A DNA stretch of 64,000 nucleotides, taken from NCBI GenBank assembly GCA_000196815.1, contig FP929003.1, positions 2,255,501 to 2,319,500 of the forward strand. The letters are read 5' to 3'. The position numbers and the translations under genes are program-made. This stretch comes from Nitrospira defluvii (GTDB taxonomy: Bacteria; Nitrospirota; Nitrospiria; Nitrospirales; Nitrospiraceae). The notes beneath the pieces are model-generated. The model saw only the letters and a program-made list of their open reading frames with translations, was not told where the DNA came from and did no database searches. This document shows, piece by piece, positions 42,305 through 60,677 of this stretch (the first letter of the stretch is position 1; every line of letters begins with the position of its first letter).

Positions 42305-42330
42305 TCGGCTCTTAACCGGTGAGGGGCACG

Positions 42331-42981
42331 ATGGCACAACCACAGGCGGCAGCTAAACAGCAGAGTGCGGTCAATGACGATGAGCAGGTGGAAAAGGCGC
42401 CTGACACGAAACTCTACGAGGAGTTGGGAGAACTGGCACGGTTCATCGATACCACGATGAAGACCCTCTCCGAATTCAGCGCCCCGGTCAATGCATCGAC
42501 GGAACAGTTGCCGCAAGCGCAGACTCACCTTCTCAATCTGAAAACCCAGACCGAACAGGGAACGCACAGGGTCATGCTTGAAGTGGAGGCCATCCAGGAC
42601 AACCATGCCCAGATCAGCAAGATGCTGAAGGAGATGACACAGACGCTCCAGCAAGCGAAGGTTTCCCCCGCACTCATACAACAGATGCAAACACTGGGGC
42701 AAACACTCGGGCAGGACGACAAGCGACTGCTCGATATTATGACGGCGCTGTCCTTCCAGGACCTGGTGGCGCAGAGCGTCAACAAACTCGTCACGATTCT
42801 GGATGAAGTCGAGCATAAACTGCTTCAACTCGTGGTGGTCTTCGGTCCTTATCAGAAACAGGCCGCGAAGACCGATCAGGGCAAAGCCAGCGAAATGTTG
42901 AAGCAACTCGAAGCGACGAAGAATACGTCGATGGATCAGGATCTCGCGGACGAAATCTTGAAGCAATTCGGTTTTAACTGA
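42331..42981 (+). CDS. cheZ: CheY-P phosphatase CheZ
   Basis: A 216-aa helical protein with the CheZ catalytic segment ALSFQDLVAQSVNKLVTIL: Asp144 and Gln148 align with Asp143 and Gln147 of E. coli CheZ. The C-terminal peptide DQDLADEILKQFGFN fits the amphipathic CheY-binding tail. CheZ dephosphorylates CheY-P. Outside Proteobacteria CheZ is less common and supports the proteobacterial-like signalling of this locus. The ATG at 42331 follows GAGGGG. cheA begins 8 bases after the stop. Confidence 0.92.
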   Translation: MAQPQAAAKQQSAVNDDEQVEKAPDTKLYEELGELARFIDTTMKTLSEFSAPVNASTEQLPQAQTHLLNLKTQTEQGTHRVMLEVEAIQDNHAQISKMLKEMTQTLQQAKVSPALIQQMQTLGQTLGQDDKRLLDIMTALSFQDLVAQSVNKLVTILDEVEHKLLQLVVVFGPYQKQAAKTDQGKASEMLKQLEATKNTSMDQDLADEILKQFGFN

Positions 42982-47182: not shown

Positions 47183-48868
47183 ATGGGGAGCATGATGAAG
47201 CATATGTCGATCGGGCCTAAATTCATTTTATCGATTTCCTTGGTGGCATTGATTGTTATCGGGATCGGCCTCGCCGTGTTGTACCAGCAAGAAGAATCCA
47301 AGATGGACACGATGCTGAGCGGGCGTGCCAACGTCGTTGCCACTCAAATCATGATCAGCCGCGCCTACATCACGCAGAATTATGTCGCCAAGATCAAAAA
47401 ATCCAAGGCCGGTAACGAAATTCAGGTGGTCAAAGACCATGCGAGCATGGCCGATGCTATCCCGTTCCCCGCGACAGCCGTTCGGGAAATGGGTGAAGAG
47501 GCGAATCGAACCGGGCTGTACAACGCTCGCCTCATCAGCCAAAACCCAATGAATCAGTCCAATTCACCGAAAGATAATTTTGAGAACGAAGCCATCCGGG
47601 CGATCATGGCCGGAGCCGAATCGTATGCTCGCCGGGACGAAATCAACGGAGTGCCGACATTTCGTCGCGCGACTGTGGACAAAGCGACTTCAACAGCCTG
47701 CTTGAGCTGTCATACCAATAACCAGGTCGGCGATGTGTTGGGCATGCTGAGCATGTCGGTGCCGATGACCGAGGCGATTGCATTGTCGAACCGCTCCATG
47801 TGGCAGACCGGCGGCTTAATGGGCGCCATCGTTGTCATTATCCTTGCCGTCACCTATATGCTCCTCCGCAACATCGTCCTGCAGCCGATGGCCAAAATGA
47901 GCGAGATCTCCCGCGACATCGCCAAGGGCGAAGGCGATCTCACCAAGCGCGTGCCGGCCGATGGCCATGACGAAATCGCGCAGATGGGCCAATACTTCAA
48001 CGAATTCATCGAGAAGTTGCAGCACATGATCAAGAAGGTGGCTCACGTGACGGATAAGGTCGCGTCCGCCTCGGTCGAGCTGTCGGCCACCGCCGAAGAA
48101 ATTTCGAAGGGCACCGATACCCTGACGTCTCGTGCCTCCCAAACCGCAGCCGCGGTGGAAGAGATGAACGCCACTGTCGGACAGGTCGCGCAGAATTCCG
48201 GGAAGGCAGCCAGCCTGGCGCAAGATACCGTGAAAACCGCTCAAGAGGGTGGAACGGTGGTCTCGAGCACCATCTCCGGAATGCAACAGCTGTCCGAGGC
48301 GGTGTCGAACTCAGCGACCATCATTTCTGATCTTGGCAAGTCTTCCGATCAAATTGGCGAAATTGTCCGAACGATCGAAGACATCGCCGACCAGACCAAC
48401 TTGCTGGCCTTGAACGCCGCCATCGAAGCGGCACGAGCCGGCGAACAGGGGCGTGGATTCGCAGTCGTGGCCGATGAAGTCCGGAAGCTCGCAGAACGGA
48501 CGACCAAAGCCACGAAGGAAATCGGCGATATGATCCGCCAGATCCAGCAGGATACGCGGGGAGCCGTCGATTCGATGCAGCAAGGCACGCAGAAAGTCAC
48601 GGCGGGCGTGGACCTGGTCAACAAGACCGGCGAAGCCCTCTCCCAGATCGTACGGATGGTCTCGGAAAGCGCCGATATGATCCGACAGATTGCCGTGGCC
48701 TCGGAAGAGCAGTCGGTCGCGACGCAACAGATCGCGAGCGATATCGAAAACGTGGCGAAGGTCACCAAAGAGTCCTCGTCCGGCGCACATGAGTCGGCGA
48801 AGGCCAGTCAGGACCTGAGCCAGTTGGCGGTCGAACTGCAGGGAATCGTGGGTGGATTCAAGCTCTAA
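47183..48868 (+). CDS. methyl-accepting chemotaxis protein with periplasmic heme-c (DUF3365-like) sensor
   Basis: A 561-aa receptor. TM1 is at ~12-32 and TM2 at ~213-235. The periplasmic domain between them resembles the Tll0287/DUF3365 sensor ([20 protein letters not shown]) and contains CxxCH at Cys173-Cys176-His177 (ACLSCHTNN), a covalent heme c site. HAMP ([20 protein letters not shown]) and the signalling domain with the tip [20 protein letters not shown] follow. A heme c there would sense redox state, NO or a small gas. No CheR-docking pentapeptide is visible at the end (GIVGGFKL). It sits between cheB and cheW. Confidence 0.92.
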
Positions 48869-51615: not shown

Positions 51616-51846
51616 ATGATCCTCAAGCCGGCTGGTGATTTAACAATATTTGAAGTCGGTGCGTTGTACGAGGAGATCAAACAGGCGGTCACAGTCCACC
51701 CTCAAGTTGAACTGGACCTGTCCGAAGTGGACAAACTCGATGCCTCAGCGATTCAACTGCTTATTGCCGTCCGTCGGTCCGAACGTATTGTGCTGACAGG
51801 GATGACAGATCCGATGCGATCGCGCATGGCGGAATTAGGCGCGTGA
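51616..51846 (+). CDS. small STAS-domain protein
   Basis: A 76-aa STAS domain: [20 protein letters not shown], then the core [20 protein letters not shown]. The residue normally phosphorylated in anti-sigma antagonists (DSSG) is still Ser here, in a DASAIQ context, so partner switching is possible. Unlike the STAS pair at 61.8-62.5 kb it is truncated after the core helix. It heads a sigma-28 operon with a receptor-like protein and cheY. GAAAGGAAG precedes the ATG. Confidence 0.8.
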
Positions 51847-51886: not shown

Positions 51887-53002
51887 ATGATGTCATACTT
51901 ATCAGTCTCTCTGGGGGCATTCTTCGCCGGGACCTGCATTGCCTGGATGTGGTGTCAACGCCAAACCGCTTCAGCAAAACGGGCTCTCCAGGCCACCCAT
52001 GACGCCATGCTGAAAGAGCAGGCGGAGCGGACGGCCGCGTGGGAGCAACTCGGACAGTCCACCATTCCCCTGGTCGCGGTCTTAAACGCTCAAATGAAAA
52101 GCGTGATCAGCCAGACCGAGCAGGCTGCCACCGATCTGGGGCAGCGGTTCAGCATGATCGCGTCGCGCGCCACGGTACAGGCCAAGGAATCGACGCATCT
52201 CTTCGGTGACGGCGAGATGAGTCTCGATACGGTCTTGAAGACCACGGACACCATGCTCGAAGGCTTTGTCGGCGACGTCATGAAGTCATCGGAAATGGCG
52301 CTGCAGATCGCGACCATTATGGATGAAGTCGAGCGGAGCACCAAAGCCATCACCGGCATGATCGGCGAAATTGAATTTATTGCAGACCAGACCCGCTTGC
52401 TGGCCCTCAACGCCGCGATCGAAGCCGCACGAGCCGGAGAACATGGTCGCGGGTTCGCCGTCGTCGCCGATGAAGTGACCAAACTGGCGAACCGTTCAGG
52501 ACAGGCTGCCAGCAGCATTAACAGCCTCGTCATGGACGTTCAGAAGAACACCACGTTGGCGATGGGGACAGTGGAAAGCCTGGCGTCTGTGGATCTGAGC
52601 AAAACTTTGTCGATCAAACACCGCCTCGACACGATGACGCGTGATCTCGCCGAACGGAACAATACGCTGAAATCGGCCGTGATGAACTCGAAATCCCATG
52701 CGGATGAACTGGCGCGGGACGTCGGTCAAATCATCATGGCACTCCAGTTCCAGGACATCACCAGACAGAAACTGGAACACGTCATCGAACCACTCACCGA
52801 AGTTCGCGCGGTGATGGATGCCCTGATCCAGGGATTTCCGCAGGAGCAGGTGGCCGCCAAGATGGACTTCCTCACGAAGCTCGACCGCAGCTACACCATG
52901 GAAGACGAGCGCGCGGTGTTCCACCAGGCCGCAACCGGGTATGTTCCCGCGCCATCCCAGGAGAGTGCCCCTTCGGAAGACGCCAATGTCACGTTGTTTT
53001 AG
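51887..53002 (+). CDS. short membrane-anchored MCP-like protein with CheZ-like motif
   Basis: The product has 371 aa. One N-terminal TM (~4-22, [17 protein letters not shown]), no periplasmic sensor, and a short signalling domain whose tip reads [20 protein letters not shown]. Beyond the tip is [20 protein letters not shown]: Asp290 and Gln294 stand in the FQDxxxQ arrangement of the CheZ active site. It ends with DANVTLF, and CheD at 60060 ends with the near-identical SNVTLF. It may link receptor arrays to CheY dephosphorylation, and cheY lies immediately downstream. A conventional transducer for cytoplasmic signals is the alternative. Confidence 0.85.
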
Positions 53003-53039
53003 GTAACGTCGGTTTATCAGAAGAATGAAGGAGTGCGCC

Positions 53040-53411
53040 ATGGCGAAAACAGTGTTGGTGGTCGACGATTCTCCCACGATGCGACAGATGGTGGCGTTCA
53101 CCCTGACCAGCGCGGGCTATCAAGTTGTGGAAGCCGGCAACGGCAAAGAGGCGGTCGGCAAAGTGAACGGCGGGGCGAAGCCGGACCTTGTCGTCACCGA
53201 CCTGAACATGCCCGAGATGGACGGCATCACCCTGATCAAGGAAATCCGGAAGATGCCGGCCCTCAAGTTCACCCCGATCTTGATGCTGACGACCGAAGCC
53301 TCCGACGACAAGAAAAAGGCGGGACAGGCCGCCGGAGCCACCGGATGGATCGTGAAGCCGTTCAATCCCGAGCAGATGATGGCTGTCATTAAGAAGGTGC
53401 TGCCCGGCTGA
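53040..53411 (+). CDS. CheY-like response regulator (cluster 2)
   Basis: A 123-aa single-domain receiver: VLVVDDSPTMRQMVAFTLTS, phospho-Asp in VVTDLNMPEMDGITLIKEIR, Thr in MLTTEASDDKKKAGQAAG and Lys in WIVKPFNPEQMMAVIKKVL. This is the PAS/Frz-type CheY that accompanies the second kinase and is distinct from the enteric-like CheY at 41924. ATG at 53040 after AAGGAG. It is 37 bases behind the MCP-like gene. Confidence 0.93.
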   Translation: MAKTVLVVDDSPTMRQMVAFTLTSAGYQVVEAGNGKEAVGKVNGGAKPDLVVTDLNMPEMDGITLIKEIRKMPALKFTPILMLTTEASDDKKKAGQAAGATGWIVKPFNPEQMMAVIKKVLPG

Positions 53412-53531: not shown

Positions 53532-55655
53532 ATGAGCACTGATCTCTCACACTTCAAAGACGCCTTTTTCGAAGAGTCCCAGGAACACCTGACGACGATT
53601 GAAGAAGGATTGCTCCAGCTCGAACAGCGGCCGGGGGACATCGACCTGCTGAATCGAATTTTTCGCGGGGCCCATTCCATCAAGGGCAACAGCGGCATGT
53701 TCGGATTCACCGCCGTCTCCCAATTCACGCACAAGATGGAATCGGTGCTGGACCAACTGCGCAGCAGTCAGATGGTCGTGACGGTCGCCATCACCGACCT
53801 TCTGCTGCAGTCGCTCGATTGTCTCAAGACATTGATCGATTGTGCACGCACCGGTGCCGCTCCCGACGAAGCCCACGTGGCCGCCCTTGGAGGCAGGCTT
53901 GAAGCCTGCCAGGGCACACCGGCTCCCGGCCAAGCGACGGCGGTGCCGGCTGCGGATGAGCGTTCGCTGCCACCGGGCACACATCGTTTCACCATCACGT
54001 GGGCGCCGCCGAGGTATCTGTTTCAGCGTGGGCTCGATCCCGCACAGTTCCTCAAGGAACTGGCCAGCCTGGGTACCGTCACGCATCTCGCCTTGGATGC
54101 CGGACGATTACCGGTCCTGATGGAGTTAGATCCCGAACAGTGTTATCTCGGCTGGACGCTGGAACTCGAAACCGGCAAAGACCTCAAGGTCATCGACGCA
54201 GTCTTTGATTTCGTCCGCGAGGACAGCACCCTGACGATCGTGGACAATCCGGTCGAAACACACCCGACCGCCGCAGTGTCCGACGGGGCGAAGCCATTGG
54301 GCGAAATCCTCGTCGAAACCGGGGTGGTGTCACAGACGCAGTTGAATCAGGCCTTGTCCCAACAGAAGAAGGTCGGGGAAATCCTGGTTGAACAGAAAGT
54401 GGCCACTCCGGAGCAAATCTCCGAGGCGCTCAAGAAGCAATCAGAATGCACCGTACCGGCCAAGAAGGCTGAAACCCCGTCGATCAGGGTCGATACCGTC
54501 AAGATCGATCGCCTCATCAACCTGGTCGGGGAGTTGGTCATTACTCAGTCCATGTTGAGCGATCTGGGGTCTCGTTTCGAAATGAGTCAGCTCCCGGTCC
54601 TGCTCGAACGCGTCGCGCAATTGGAACGCAATACACGGGAAATCCAAGAGCGCGTGATGGGGATTCGCATGGTCCCGATCGGGAATGCGTTCAGCCGGTT
54701 CCCGCGTCTGGTGCGCGACCTGTCCGGCAAAGCCGGAAAGAAAATTCAACTGATCCTCTCCGGAGAAGAAACCGAACTCGACAAGACCGTGATCGAATCG
54801 ATCGGCGATCCGTTGACCCATCTGGTGCGAAACTCAGCGGATCATGGGCTGGAACCGCCGGATGAACGCCTGGCCGCGGGAAAGCCGGAACAGGGCATCA
54901 TCCGCCTCAACGCCTTTCATGAAGGCGGCAGCATCTGCATCACCGTCGAAGACGACGGGCGCGGTCTGAATCGGGACAAGATTCTTGCGAAGGGCATTAA
55001 GCAAGGATTGATCGCGGAGTCCGACAAACTGTCGGACGAGCAAATCTGGATGCTCATCTTCAAACCCGGGTTCTCCACCGCTGAAAAAGTCACGGATGTG
55101 TCCGGCCGCGGTGTCGGCATGGATGTCGTGAAACGCAACATCGAAGGGTTAGGCGGCACGGTCAGTATCAAGACCGTCACCGGCAAAGGCACCACGTTCA
55201 CGCTCAAGCTTCCGCTCACTCTCGCGATCATCGAGGGCATGACGGTCCGGGTCGGTCAGGACACGTACATCGTTCCACTTCTCTCGATCCTGGAATCGAT
55301 TCAGCCGAAGCGCGAAATGCTCAAGAGCATCGTCGGCAAAGGGGAGTTGGTCAATGTTCGGGGCACCTATCTTCCTCTCATGCGCCTGTACGACGTGTTT
55401 CGGCTGGAACCGGAACTCTCGGATCCTACGAAGGCTATCCTGTTGATTCTGGAAACCGAAGGCGAACGCGTCGCCGTCATGGTCGATGAAATTCTCGGCC
55501 AACAGCAGGTGGTGATCAAGAGTATGGAGCAGAACTTCAGGAAAATCGAAGGGGTGGCCGGCGCAACCATTCTGGGCGACGGCACGGTCGGCTTTATTCT
55601 GGATGTGCGCGGATTGCTGAATATCTCTCGGAACGGGACGGCTCAGGCGGCGTAA
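53532..55655 (+). CDS. chemotaxis histidine kinase CheA (cluster 2) with MshEN-like repeats
   Basis: The product has 707 aa. P1 with His48 in GAHSIKGNSGMFGF; a CheA middle domain at ~150-240 (PRYLFQRGLDPAQFLKELAS, YLGWTLELET); then tandem repeats LGEILVETGVVSQTQLNQAL (~255-279) and GEILVEQKVATPEQISEAL (~281-303); P3, P4 (HLVRNSADHGLEPPDERL, EDDGRGLNRD, GRGVGMDVV) and P5 CheW-like. The repeat pair is the same type as in the cluster 1 CheA but better preserved. Start at ATG 53532, which aligns P1 with the other CheA; a TTG at 53508 is rejected. Confidence 0.95.
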   Translation: MSTDLSHFKDAFFEESQEHLTTIEEGLLQLEQRPGDIDLLNRIFRGAHSIKGNSGMFGFTAVSQFTHKMESVLDQLRSSQMVVTVAITDLLLQSLDCLKTLIDCARTGAAPDEAHVAALGGRLEACQGTPAPGQATAVPAADERSLPPGTHRFTITWAPPRYLFQRGLDPAQFLKELASLGTVTHLALDAGRLPVLMELDPEQCYLGWTLELETGKDLKVIDAVFDFVREDSTLTIVDNPVETHPTAAVSDGAKPLGEILVETGVVSQTQLNQALSQQKKVGEILVEQKVATPEQISEALKKQSECTVPAKKAETPSIRVDTVKIDRLINLVGELVITQSMLSDLGSRFEMSQLPVLLERVAQLERNTREIQERVMGIRMVPIGNAFSRFPRLVRDLSGKAGKKIQLILSGEETELDKTVIESIGDPLTHLVRNSADHGLEPPDERLAAGKPEQGIIRLNAFHEGGSICITVEDDGRGLNRDKILAKGIKQGLIAESDKLSDEQIWMLIFKPGFSTAEKVTDVSGRGVGMDVVKRNIEGLGGTVSIKTVTGKGTTFTLKLPLTLAIIEGMTVRVGQDTYIVPLLSILESIQPKREMLKSIVGKGELVNVRGTYLPLMRLYDVFRLEPELSDPTKAILLILETEGERVAVMVDEILGQQQVVIKSMEQNFRKIEGVAGATILGDGTVGFILDVRGLLNISRNGTAQAA

Positions 55656-55710: not shown

Positions 55711-56220
55711 ATGGCAGAACAGGAATTCGCGAACAAAGAATTGAATCATCAAACGGGAATCAGCACCGACGGCAGTCAATTCCTCACCTTCCAGCTGGGG
55801 GAAGAACTGTACGGGGTCGACATTCTCCGGGTGCAAGAGATCAAAGGGTATACGGCCGTCACGCGTATTCCCAATACCCCGGCCCATATTAAGGGCGTGT
55901 TGAACCTCCGTGGAACCATCGTCCCCATTGTGGAGCTTCGCACGAAATTCGGAATGCCGACGATCGAATACACCATGTTCACCGTGATTGTGGTGGTGGT
56001 TGTGAAGGAAAAAATCATGGGACTCGTCGTGGATGCGGTCTCCGACGTGCTCGATATCGATAAGAAAGACATTCAGCCCGCACCGCAATTCGGCGCGCAA
56101 GTCGATGTCAGCTTCCTGAACGGCATCGGCAAAGCCGGGGACAAGCTGGTCGCGTTGCTGGACATGGATCGCTTGTTGACAGACGGAGACATGACGGAAT
56201 CCGAGAAAATCGCAGCTTAA
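55711..56220 (+). CDS. chemotaxis coupling protein CheW (cluster 2)
   Basis: A 169-aa CheW with FQLGEELYGVDILRVQEIKG, RIPNTPAHIKGVLNLRGTIV, LRTKFGMP and GLVVDAVSDVLDIDKKDIQP. It couples the cluster 2 CheA to the globin receptor encoded next. GGGTGGGAGG precedes the ATG. Confidence 0.95.
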   Translation: MAEQEFANKELNHQTGISTDGSQFLTFQLGEELYGVDILRVQEIKGYTAVTRIPNTPAHIKGVLNLRGTIVPIVELRTKFGMPTIEYTMFTVIVVVVVKEKIMGLVVDAVSDVLDIDKKDIQPAPQFGAQVDVSFLNGIGKAGDKLVALLDMDRLLTDGDMTESEKIAA

Positions 56221-56245: not shown

Positions 56246-58564
56246 ATGGGATTACACATCGAATTGTTGGAATCGAGCTTCAAACTTGTGGCGCCCCAGG
56301 GCGACGCGCTGGTGACCCGGTTTTACGAGCGGCTGTTCGAAAAGTACCCGGCCGTGAAGCCGTTGTTCAAGAATGCGTCGATCAGTGAGCAGAAGAAAAA
56401 GCTGCTGGCCTCCCTGGTGTTGGTCATCCAGAACCTGCGTCATCCGGAAAAACTCACCCCGGTCCTGCAGGACATGGGAGCCCGACACGTCGGATACGGC
56501 GCCAAGCCGGCCTACTACGACGCGGTCGGGGAGAATCTGCTGGCCGTGTTGGGCGAATTTGCCGGGGAGGCATGGACGCCTGAGGTCAAACAAGCCTGGA
56601 CAGACGCCTACGCCGCCATCAAGACCATTATGCTCGAAGGCGCAAAACGGGTACACCACACACAAGGAGAGAAGAAGATGAGTAAGGCACCGGCAAAGAC
56701 AAAGACGAAAGCGCCAGCGCAGGCTGATATGAGCGAGTTTTATCTCGGTGCTCTCGAGCAGTCGCAGAACAACATCCTGCTCTGCGACCGTAATTTGGTC
56801 ATCACCTATGCCAACTCGACGGCGAAGAAAACGCTCGTGGCTCTGGAGCCAGAAATTAAGAAGGTGTTACCGAAGTTCAATGTGAATACGGTGGTGGGTA
56901 CCTGTATCGACGATTTCCATCTGGATCCCAGCAAGCAGCGCAGAATCTTGTCCGATCCGGCCAATATGCCGCACAAGGCGGACATCCAGATCGGTCCGTT
57001 GACTCTCAGTTTGCTGGTCACCGCTGTGATGGGTCCAAACAGGGACTATCTCGGGAATGCCTTGGAGTGGGCGGATGTCACTGAGAAGCGAAAAATGGAG
57101 CAGCAGGCTTTGGCGATGAGCAAGTCGCAGGCCGTGATCGAATTCAACTTGGACGGAACGGTCGTCACCGCCAACGACAACTTCCTGGCCTGCCTCGCCT
57201 ACACGCTGGATGAGATCAAGGGAAAACATCACCGGTTGTTTGTCGACCCGACCTATGCCAACAGCCTGGAGTACCAGGCGTTCTGGGCGAAGCTGAATCG
57301 CGGTGAGTTCGACACCGGCTCCTACAAGCGAATCGCCAAGGGTGGCAGGGAGATTTGGATTCAAGCCACCTACAATCCCATCTTCGACGCCAGCGGAAAA
57401 CCGTACAAGGTGGTGAAGTTCGCCACCGACATCACCGCGCAGAAGCAGTCACAATTCGAAATGGAAAAACTTGTCGCCGAAGCCCAGAACGTCCTCGGTT
57501 GCCTTGCAAACAACGACCTCACGCAGGAGATGACCGAGACCTATCGCGGCGATCTGGACAAGGTCAAGACCAGCATCAATGCCGTGGTTCAAAACCTCAG
57601 CCAGACGATCACCACGGTGCGCGAGGCGGTGCAAGCCGTGTCGGCCGGCGCCGAGCAGATCACCAAGGGGAACGAAGATCTGTCTCAACGCACATCGGAG
57701 CAGGCGAGTGCGCTGGAAGAAACCTCGGCGTCCATGGAAGAGATGACCTCGACCGTGAAGCAGAACGCAGACAACGCGAAACAGGCCAACCAATTGGCCA
57801 TCGCGGCGCGCGACATCGCCGACAAGGGTGGGTCCGTCACCGTCCGCGCAGTGGAAGCCATGGGCGAAATCAATAAGAGCAGTAAGAAGATCGCGGACAT
57901 CATCACCGTGATCGACGAGATCGCGTTCCAGACCAATCTGCTGGCTTTGAATGCCGCGGTGGAAGCGGCCAGGGCAGGCGAACATGGTCGCGGCTTTGCA
58001 GTCGTGGCGGCCGAAGTACGCAACCTCGCGCAACGGTCGGCGACGGCCGCCAAAGAGATCAAGGGCTTGATCAACGAATCGATCCAACGCGTGAACGACG
58101 GCAGCGAGTTGGTCAATCAATCCGGCAAAACGCTGGAAGAGATCGTCAGCTCGGTTAAACGTGTGACGGACATCATCGCCGAAATCACGGCTGCCTCGCA
58201 GGAACAGGCCCAGGGCATCGACCAGGTCAACAAGGCCATCATGCAGATGGACGAGACGACCCAGCAGAACGCGGCGTTGGTGGAAGAAACCACGTCGGCC
58301 AGTCAGTCGATGAAGGACCAGGCCAAGGAACTGATGGGTCAGATGGATGTGTTCGTCGTCAATGCCTCCGAAGGCCATGCGCCTGTGCGCACAGCAGTGT
58401 CTTCGGCGAGGACTGCGGCCAAGCCTGCGGTTGCCGCCACGAAGCCGGGCTTGAAGAAAGCGAGCTTCTCGGCGAAGCCGGCGGAGACCAAACAGCCTGT
58501 GGGTGTCGCAGCCGGGAACGGCCACGATCGCCACAAGAAGGATGACGACTTCGAAGAGTTCTAG
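56246..58564 (+). CDS. soluble globin-PAS-PAS methyl-accepting chemotaxis protein
   Basis: A 772-aa receptor with no TM segment. Residues 1-135 are a bacterial globin (FYERLFEKYPAVKPLFKNAS; proximal His81 in MGARHVGYG; then AYYDAVGENLLAVLGEF). Two PAS domains follow (~160-285 and ~290-405, the second ending FATDITAQKQSQFEMEKL), then a HAMP-like segment and the signalling domain with the tip [20 protein letters not shown]. The C-terminus DDDFEEF resembles a CheR-docking pentapeptide, and cheR2 is two genes downstream. Heme globins in this position sense O2, so aerotaxis is likely. PAS cofactors are unknown. Confidence 0.92.
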   Translation: MGLHIELLESSFKLVAPQGDALVTRFYERLFEKYPAVKPLFKNASISEQKKKLLASLVLVIQNLRHPEKLTPVLQDMGARHVGYGAKPAYYDAVGENLLAVLGEFAGEAWTPEVKQAWTDAYAAIKTIMLEGAKRVHHTQGEKKMSKAPAKTKTKAPAQADMSEFYLGALEQSQNNILLCDRNLVITYANSTAKKTLVALEPEIKKVLPKFNVNTVVGTCIDDFHLDPSKQRRILSDPANMPHKADIQIGPLTLSLLVTAVMGPNRDYLGNALEWADVTEKRKMEQQALAMSKSQAVIEFNLDGTVVTANDNFLACLAYTLDEIKGKHHRLFVDPTYANSLEYQAFWAKLNRGEFDTGSYKRIAKGGREIWIQATYNPIFDASGKPYKVVKFATDITAQKQSQFEMEKLVAEAQNVLGCLANNDLTQEMTETYRGDLDKVKTSINAVVQNLSQTITTVREAVQAVSAGAEQITKGNEDLSQRTSEQASALEETSASMEEMTSTVKQNADNAKQANQLAIAARDIADKGGSVTVRAVEAMGEINKSSKKIADIITVIDEIAFQTNLLALNAAVEAARAGEHGRGFAVVAAEVRNLAQRSATAAKEIKGLINESIQRVNDGSELVNQSGKTLEEIVSSVKRVTDIIAEITAASQEQAQGIDQVNKAIMQMDETTQQNAALVEETTSASQSMKDQAKELMGQMDVFVVNASEGHAPVRTAVSSARTAAKPAVAATKPGLKKASFSAKPAETKQPVGVAAGNGHDRHKKDDDFEEF

Positions 58565-58692: not shown

Positions 58693-58769
58693 GTGACGGT
58701 GCGGGTGTATTCTTGCCGGACCCGATTCGACGGCTCCGGCCGATTTCACCTCTAGCCCAGGGACGGATC

Positions 58770-59231
58770 ATGGACCTTAAAACAATTCTCTGGTACCTCG
58801 TCCTCTCCAGCCTGACTGTTGCCTATCTGGTTGTGTTGGCCGGTGTGCGAGCCGCCAAGTCGCACGATGTCTCGCATCATTCACATCGCATGATCGTAGG
58901 CTGCACGATCGTCGGGATCTGGCTGGTAGCCTACGTCCTCAAACAAGCGATCTTCGGCCGCGAATCGTTCAAAGGCCCTGACAGCGCCTACTGGAGCGTC
59001 TATGTGCCGGTGTTCGTCACGCACATGCTGCTCGCAGTCACGACCATAGGTTTGGGCGCCTATAACCTCTACATGGGCCTCCACCGTCTGCGGTACGGAA
59101 GCGTCGGGGCCATGGTGGCCGGCATGACGACCCACCGGCGGATGGGTAATGCGCTGGTCTGGACATTCAGCGGCACGATGGTCACCGCATATCTCGTCTA
59201 TTTGATGTTGTTTGTCTGGTACCGGAGCTAA
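58770..59231 (+). CDS. DUF420-family membrane protein
   Basis: A 153-aa protein with four hydrophobic segments (ILWYLVLSSLTVAYLVVLA, VGCTIVGIWLVAYVLKQAI, VYVPVFVTHMLLAVTTIGLG and the C-terminal VWTFSGTMVTAYLVYLMLF). Conserved His occur in SHHSHRM, THMLL, LHRLRYG and THRRMGN. This matches DUF420, a family tied to heme-copper oxidase assembly (CtaM) in Firmicutes. Its place in a chemotaxis operon, right after a globin receptor and under a sigma-28 promoter, is unusual. It overlaps nothing and is 4 bases before cheR2. Confidence 0.82.
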   Translation: MDLKTILWYLVLSSLTVAYLVVLAGVRAAKSHDVSHHSHRMIVGCTIVGIWLVAYVLKQAIFGRESFKGPDSAYWSVYVPVFVTHMLLAVTTIGLGAYNLYMGLHRLRYGSVGAMVAGMTTHRRMGNALVWTFSGTMVTAYLVYLMLFVWYRS

Positions 59232-60059: not shown

Positions 60060-60677
60060 ATGGCTCGTATCGACACCGACACCTTCTCCCACATCCGGCG
60101 AATGAACGATAACCGTTTCCCGACCGAAGTCGCCTGCATTCTCCCGGGCGAGTTTTTCGTGAGTCGGGAACCCATGGTGGTCTATACCGTGCTCGGTTCC
60201 TGCATCTCGGCCTGTGTCCGGGACCCGATCGCGGGAGTTGGTGGCATGAATCATTTCATGCTCCCGGCGCCGAAAGAGCACCAGTCGGGCGATGCCTGGG
60301 GAGGGGAATCCACACGTTATGGTTCCTTCGCCATGGAGCAGTTGATCAACGAGATCCTCAAGCGCGGTGGAATGAAGCACCGGCTGGAGGTGAAGTTGTT
60401 CGGCGCCGGACGGATTTATGACGGCAATATCGATGTCGGCGCCCGGAATACAGAATGGGTCATCCAGTACCTCAAAACCGAAGGCTACGCACTCGCGAAG
60501 AGTGATCTGGGCGACGTGTTCCCGAGAAAGGTCTACTACTTCACCGATTCGGGCCGCGTGCTGATGAAAAAACTCGAGCGGGTGAAGAATCGGACGATTG
60601 TCGATCGGGAAACCGAATACCAGCATCGGATCGAAGTCGAACCGGTTGCACAAGAGAGCAATGTCACACTGTTCTGA
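60060..60677 (+). CDS. cheD: chemoreceptor glutamine deamidase CheD
   Basis: A 205-aa CheD: catalytic Cys in [15 protein letters not shown], catalytic His in GGMNHFMLP, and [20 protein letters not shown]. CheD deamidates receptor glutamines and interacts with CheC or CheY phosphatases. The tail [20 protein letters not shown] extends past the fold and ends in the same NVTLF as the MCP-like protein at 51887. The start lies 5 bases after cheR2. Confidence 0.95.

Follow-up and report, generated by a model that had tools for sequence, protein, structure and literature searches.

The analysed window, a 64,000-nucleotide stretch of the Nitrospira defluvii genome (GCA_000196815.1, contig FP929003.1, positions 2,255,501 to 2,319,500 of the forward strand), contains at positions 51887-53002 of its plus strand a gene for a 371-aa sensorless MCP-like protein with a CheZ-like module. 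The reading frame that the preliminary description placed at 51887 is real, with D290 and Q294 located within FQDITRQ, and the claimed absence of a sensor domain holds as well: Pfam searches down to E 1 show neither a ligand-binding nor a HAMP domain. By far the strongest Pfam match is MCPsignal (PF00015; residues 140-286, 110.2 bits against a cut-off of 34.6, E 1.3e-31). The protein consists of a hydrophobic N-terminus, a long helix, the MCP signalling domain, the helix that carries FQDITRQ, the stretch SYTMEDER and the terminal NVTLF. Judging from the hydrophobicity of the translation, residues 4-22 or thereabouts (51896-51952) are a probable membrane anchor. A CheZ-like N-helix (residues about 54-95; 52046-52171), delineated by the structure model, where it is part of the helix 2-105, and by columns conserved in 47 relatives, is separated from a CheZ-like C-helix (residues 238-315; 52598-52831), delineated by the Pfam and NCBIfam CheZ matches and by the model, by an MCP signalling hairpin (residues about 113-233; 52223-52585) that is absent from the tipless relatives described below. 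The putative phosphatase site FQDITRQ lies at 52748-52768 (D290 at 52754-52756, Q294 at 52766-52768), the second conserved stretch, SYTMEDER, which is kept in relatives, at 52889-52912, and the C-terminal tail NVTLF, which is common to CheD, at 52985-52999.

The surrounding cluster is ordered STAS, the 371-aa gene, cheY, cheA, cheW, globin-PAS-MCP, small membrane protein, cheR, cheD, cheB, two STAS and an RsbU-like phosphatase, several of these names resting on our reading of the sequence. The 76-aa STAS-like protein just upstream (51616-51846) was named from its sequence and the cluster order. As the preliminary description had it, cheY follows after 37 bases, with an ATG at 53040 (53040-53411; Response_reg, 2.4e-29); its product is the presumed substrate. 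Then come cheA (53532-55655, start chosen by eye), cheW (55711-56220), the globin-PAS-MCP in the Aer2 slot (56246-58564, ending in DFEEF) and, farther downstream, cheD (60060-60677, ending in NVTLF). By gene order, compared with the published description, the cluster resembles an F7 (Che2/Aer2-type) system. The DFEEF end of the globin-PAS-MCP fits the published CheR-tether pattern of Aer2-like receptors, the globin domain here being N-terminal. The small membrane protein (58713-59231), encoded between the globin-MCP and cheR, is kept in most related Nitrospira loci. A genuine CheZ (42331-42981, plus strand; 72.8 bits) is encoded in the neighbouring flagellar-type cluster; its motif ALSFQDLVAQ, to which the preliminary description had likened that of the 371-aa protein, is confirmed, with the ORF starting at ATG 42331 (the listed ORF begins at 42319). 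The sensor of an MCP in the same flagellar-type cluster (47183-48868) is Tll0287-like (PF11845, 1.4e-16), with a haem-binding stretch of the form CxxCH. Neither CheC nor CheX turned up in the genome.

In CheZ catalysis, the glutamine positions a water molecule and the aspartate contacts a lysine of CheY. The CheZ profile PF04344 matches the 371-aa protein in one stretch, residues 245-321, with 19.2 bits and E 0.0012, below the curated cut-off of 30.7, and NF041271 (NCBIfam Phos_CheZ) matches residues 253-316 at E 0.001, far under its own cut-off. Across the whole genome, which encodes four MCP-domain proteins, the sole PF04344 matches are the real CheZ and the 51887-53002 ORF. Across 61 related genomes, the profile finds, besides genuine CheZs, almost only the family of the 371-aa protein, the single other match being a 1025-aa ORF (E 0.0075); every CheZ match within the family falls below the Pfam cut-off. 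Within the window's six frames (127,996 codons), FQDxxxQ is present at just two places, CheZ and the 371-aa protein, and 558 of 200,000 shuffles of the latter contain it; we judge the observation to be more than chance. The CheZ signature given in the literature, AXXFQ adjoining DXXXQ (PMC7750401), is complete (A285, F288, Q289, D290, Q294); its first position is A in 37 of the best 80 of 137 loci of the family and S in the rest.

One alternative is that the protein is an ordinary receptor that lacks a sensor, or a filler of arrays, in whose stalk FQDxxxQ arose by chance or convergence. The dominance of the MCPsignal match is in line with this possibility, and so is the frequency of bare DxxxQ in MCP stalks: the window's two ordinary MCPs have it three times and once, respectively, after the tip, and the MDETTQQ of the globin-MCP follows the tip by 90 residues, the motif here by 105. 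Ordinary receptors carry the second methylation helix and an MDxxTQQNA stretch near the position of FQDxxxQ. Given how common bare DxxxQ is in ordinary MCP stalks, the motif alone is insufficient, and it is FQD together with the surrounding profile that carries weight. Against the ordinary-receptor explanation, neither of the window's ordinary MCPs has a CheZ match up to E 10 (for the globin-MCP, among the best 25 of 29 families), and the profile link of the family to genuine CheZ and the absence of the tip from relatives that retain D and Q, both presented below, also speak against it; we regard it as unlikely.

Conservation was assessed in searches with and without the motif. A motif-free search with the C-terminal 126 aa against the 61 genomes gave 28 matches in 23 genomes, all 28 of which retain D and Q (27 as FQDxxxQ and one, L029, as SQDxxxQ), and when 15 of these C-termini were aligned, invariance was confined to the Q, F, Q, D, R and Q of the motif and to a V and an L directly behind it. 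A pattern scan of genome contigs yielded 137 confirmed loci, of which the best 80 are mostly from Nitrospirota, with a few from other phyla. Because the selecting pattern contains QFQD, conservation of these residues in L036-L115 holds by construction, but Q294, which lies outside the pattern, is retained in all of the best 80. By a simple text test, the MCP tip is present in 54 of these 80. Among 47 sequences of both forms, with and without the tip, V73 of the N-helix and Q287, F288, Q289, D290 and Q294 are invariant, QFQD partly by selection, and Q69, E78 and A80 of the N-helix are nearly so. A text pattern for the N-helix proved too strict (49 of 80 loci) and was dropped. In Gammaproteobacteria, a profile search, only part of whose matches became loci (30, including L150, the query's own), showed D and Q retained in 29 of 29 loci (L155-L183); L153, with a stop inside the match, was excluded from the counts.

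The genomic context is conserved too: cheY, defined as a tblastn match to the cheY proteins of the window, directly follows the family gene in 74 of the best 80 of 137 loci. The six exceptions are L091, L092, L101 and L114 plus L109 (CheA next), and L102 (cheY on the opposite strand). In L091, L092, L101 and L114, the family occupies a second slot, between cheB and another cheA, and these copies have no C-terminal tail. In a Geobacteraceae genome (L110), a relative lies directly 5' of cheY and cheA. In a relative from the genus to which the window belongs (L023), the same C-terminal module and tail go with a degraded MCP tip sequence. Plasmid searches with the C-terminus of the 371-aa protein and with L203 gave no match; the search with L166 matched Pseudomonas sp. 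HR96 and Aeromonas sp. BC14, whose homologues carry an MCP annotation and precede a response regulator, STAS and CheA. Neither L203 and L160, from the gammaproteobacterial McpA slot, nor the Pseudomonas sp. HR96 homologue has a PF04344 match.

The relatives include 23 complete Nitrospirota proteins of 173-224 aa that occupy the same slot before cheY and are devoid of the MCP hairpin. These tipless forms keep the same type of N-helix, the FQDxxxQ helix, a YTMEEER-like stretch and a VTLF-like tail, and CheZ is their commonest Pfam match (22 of 23, best 4e-5, below the cut-off). That D and Q remain where the tip is missing speaks against an ordinary receptor. Many of the tipless loci are ordered cheY-cheZ-motA-motB-[tipless]-cheY-cheA, so that each cheY has its own CheZ-like neighbour. 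A tree of 91 C-terminal modules does not demonstrate repeated loss of the tip: it implies at least three tip changes, but its well-supported branches force only one. Six gammaproteobacterial tipless proteins of about 180-200 aa (L191-L194, L196, L198), with FQFYDxxxQ and an ELF end, are possible further stand-alone CheY phosphatases; few of them are near recognised che genes.

Profiles connect the family to genuine CheZ. Profile A6, built from 14 C-termini with no CheZ included and run over 276 Gammaproteobacteria, matched 90 of these genomes, and among its matches are genuine CheZs (L184-L189) with E 2.8e-5 to 2.6e-6, located in cheY-X-cheA loci and ending in DDLLSSLGF; L184 scores 242 bits with PF04344. 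In profile-profile comparison, the match of 30 tipless forms to six gammaproteobacterial CheZs extends through both helices (94 columns, E 3.8e-6), against E 0.017-0.21 for reversed-CheZ controls. Both helices of the CheZ hairpin are recognisable at the family level only, and against gammaproteobacterial rather than Nitrospirota CheZs: the Nitrospirota tipless profile A2 compared with Nitrospirota CheZs (A3) by hhalign gave a non-significant E 0.059, and a tipless profile that includes the gammaproteobacterial forms matched Nitrospirota CheZs at E 0.0052. The gammaproteobacterial tipless forms alone matched no CheZ set in these comparisons. Profile searches of the PDB reach the solved E. coli CheZ at E 0.19 and 0.77 only, the latter alignment being in register with the motif. 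In the light of the relatives, we take the similarity to CheZ to be real.

Structure models add helix limits and the geometry of the site. The predicted structure of the whole protein (pLDDT 80, pTM 0.40), which served for helix limits only, has helices at residues 2-105, 113-233 and 238-315, and the model of a tipless form has helices at 23-75, 83-125 and 131-161. With the tipless model, no Foldseek match reached E 0.001, and VIA-align 2 scored many unrelated bundles, MCPs included, at Z 8.6-10.2; the solved CheZ (1kmi) is not among the generic helical bundles listed by either program. Burial of the motif in the coiled-coil core, which the preliminary description had named as grounds against its proposal, is not borne out: as predicted from hydrophobic periodicity (period 3.5), D290 and Q294 point away from the hydrophobic face by 92 and 143 degrees, compared with 109 and 160 degrees in the window's CheZ and 137 and -171 degrees in gammaproteobacterial CheZs, and burial therefore appears unlikely. 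We read the 371-aa protein as a CheZ-type hairpin the turn of which would be extended by an inserted MCP hairpin. With CheZ (PF04344, NF041271), it shares AXXFQ-DXXXQ, a helical hairpin with a similar N-helix (IP..x..V..TE.AA), a site on the outer face and a gene beside cheY; it differs by the membrane anchor, the MCP hairpin between the helices, the NVTLF instead of an LSSLGF-type tail and the sub-cut-off score.

The tail connects the protein to CheD. The window's CheD (last five codons at 60663-60677) and the 371-aa protein have the same last five residues, and the window has two occurrences of the DNA pattern for VTLF-stop where 0.02 would be expected. Among 26 additional loci in which CheD is complete, 18 have the same tail type in CheD and the relative, namely [VI]TLF in 15 of 15 for L223-L237, [VI]ELF in L212 and L215, and ITFF in L220; most of L223-L237 are close relatives, so that these agreements are not independent. 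The tail is absent from both proteins in L115, the two tails disagree in L207, L216 and L218, and in L091, L092, L101 and L114 CheD has a tail and the neighbouring paralogue has none. A docking partner common to the tails of CheD and the 371-aa protein is the simplest explanation and a likely one. CheC, a CheY phosphatase, pairs with the receptor deamidase CheD; the likeness here is that a candidate CheY phosphatase is linked to CheD, and the difference is that neither a CheC fold nor a cheC gene is involved and that the link is a common C-terminal tail, not a known complex. We do not take the tail for a CheR tether, given that its second residue is valine, which is reported to block CheR binding in P. 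aeruginosa McpA (PMC7184735). The C-terminus could, as the preliminary description suggested, be a CheY-binding tail; it is unlike the CheZ-type C-terminal CheY-binding helix, with NVTLF in place of the DDLLSSLGF of gammaproteobacterial CheZs, and CheD has it as well. This different tail and the weak overall similarity to CheZ would suit a platform for CheY binding that descends from CheZ, is no longer catalytic and serves as an array-bound CheY-P sink or scaffold; with the two catalytic residues among the best conserved of the whole protein, we consider such a platform very improbable.

The McpA-like receptors of F7 clusters (PA0180/CttP, VCA1088 and SO_2117; PMC7184735) probably either belong to the family of the 371-aa protein or are near to it. 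Shared with these, as described there, are a single predicted membrane segment, the absence of a ligand domain, an MCP signalling domain, a cluster of cheY, cheA, cheW, an Aer2-slot receptor, cheR, cheD, cheB, STAS and a serine phosphatase, and a C-terminus of the form xVxxF, with valine second in the pentapeptide as in NVTLF (PMC7184735). Relatives in the McpA slot carry QFEDxxxQ as against QFQDxxxQ here, PA0180 and VCA1088 having been compared by description only; the gammaproteobacterial locus L212, with the published order cheR, cheD, cheB, X, STAS, RsbU, has QFEDxxxQ and a VELF end. The sections of the paper used here describe the McpA-like proteins as receptors and give no phosphatase role, note that their C-terminus is strikingly conserved while its role is unclear, and find the McpA-like receptor dispensable for the formation of F7 arrays (PMC7184735). 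In stage 1 and 2 F7 systems, cheZ is reported as confined to the F6 system (Ortega et al. 2020, PMC7184735), and the published McpA-like receptors are located in F6, not F7, arrays (PMC7184735, PMC9855816), that of P. aeruginosa associating with the F6 array (PMC7184735). The latter association, and the report that in Shewanella McpA clusters depend on CheA3 and CheW3 and that overproduction increases swimming (PMC9855816), would fit a phosphatase that acts mainly on the flagellar CheY of the other cluster (41924) and links both systems. That cluster, however, has its own CheZ, and the gene adjoins the other cheY in the large majority of the loci counted above, so that we deem this substrate quite unlikely.

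The membrane-tethered, array-docking CheY phosphatase proposed in the preliminary description emerges as the best-supported reading, to which the CheZ-like profile, the invariant D and Q, the N-helix, the tipless forms, the adjoining cheY and the lack of CheC and CheX all point. It is thus fairly likely, in our judgement, that a CheZ-type CheY phosphatase is built into a chemoreceptor, docks in arrays and acts on the neighbouring CheY. We infer the dimer geometry, array docking, substrate and catalysis as follows. The N-terminal membrane anchor would be followed by the first helix of the CheZ-like hairpin and then by the MCP signalling hairpin, the tip of which could dock with CheA and CheW; the second CheZ-like helix would expose Asp290 and Gln294 outside a dimeric four-helix bundle, where CheY-P produced from the adjoining gene would be hydrolysed as in CheZ. 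In this way, an F7-like chemosensory system otherwise devoid of a dedicated phosphatase would have its signalling cycle closed. More tentatively, and with greater doubt than hope, the protein could be a bifunctional receptor in which one coiled coil sets CheA activity at the tip and opens or closes the CheY phosphatase in the stalk; the McpA-like 'orphan receptors' of non-flagellar systems would then be the missing CheY phosphatases of systems believed to have none, and the shared, mostly co-varying tail would couple the phosphatase and the CheD deamidase to one partner.

Among open-licence PMC papers, we found none that describes an MCP with a CheZ site. A study of Geobacter, whose genomes are reported to lack cheZ, infers a CheZ-independent mechanism (PMC2577667). 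If McpA-like 'receptors' are CheY phosphatases, the puzzle of the missing cheZ and of McpA in F7 systems and the Geobacter puzzle would merge into one testable statement, and phosphatase counts based on CheZ, CheC and CheX models alone would be too low. The finding may explain how the signal is shut off in a large group of sensory systems without a known off-switch.
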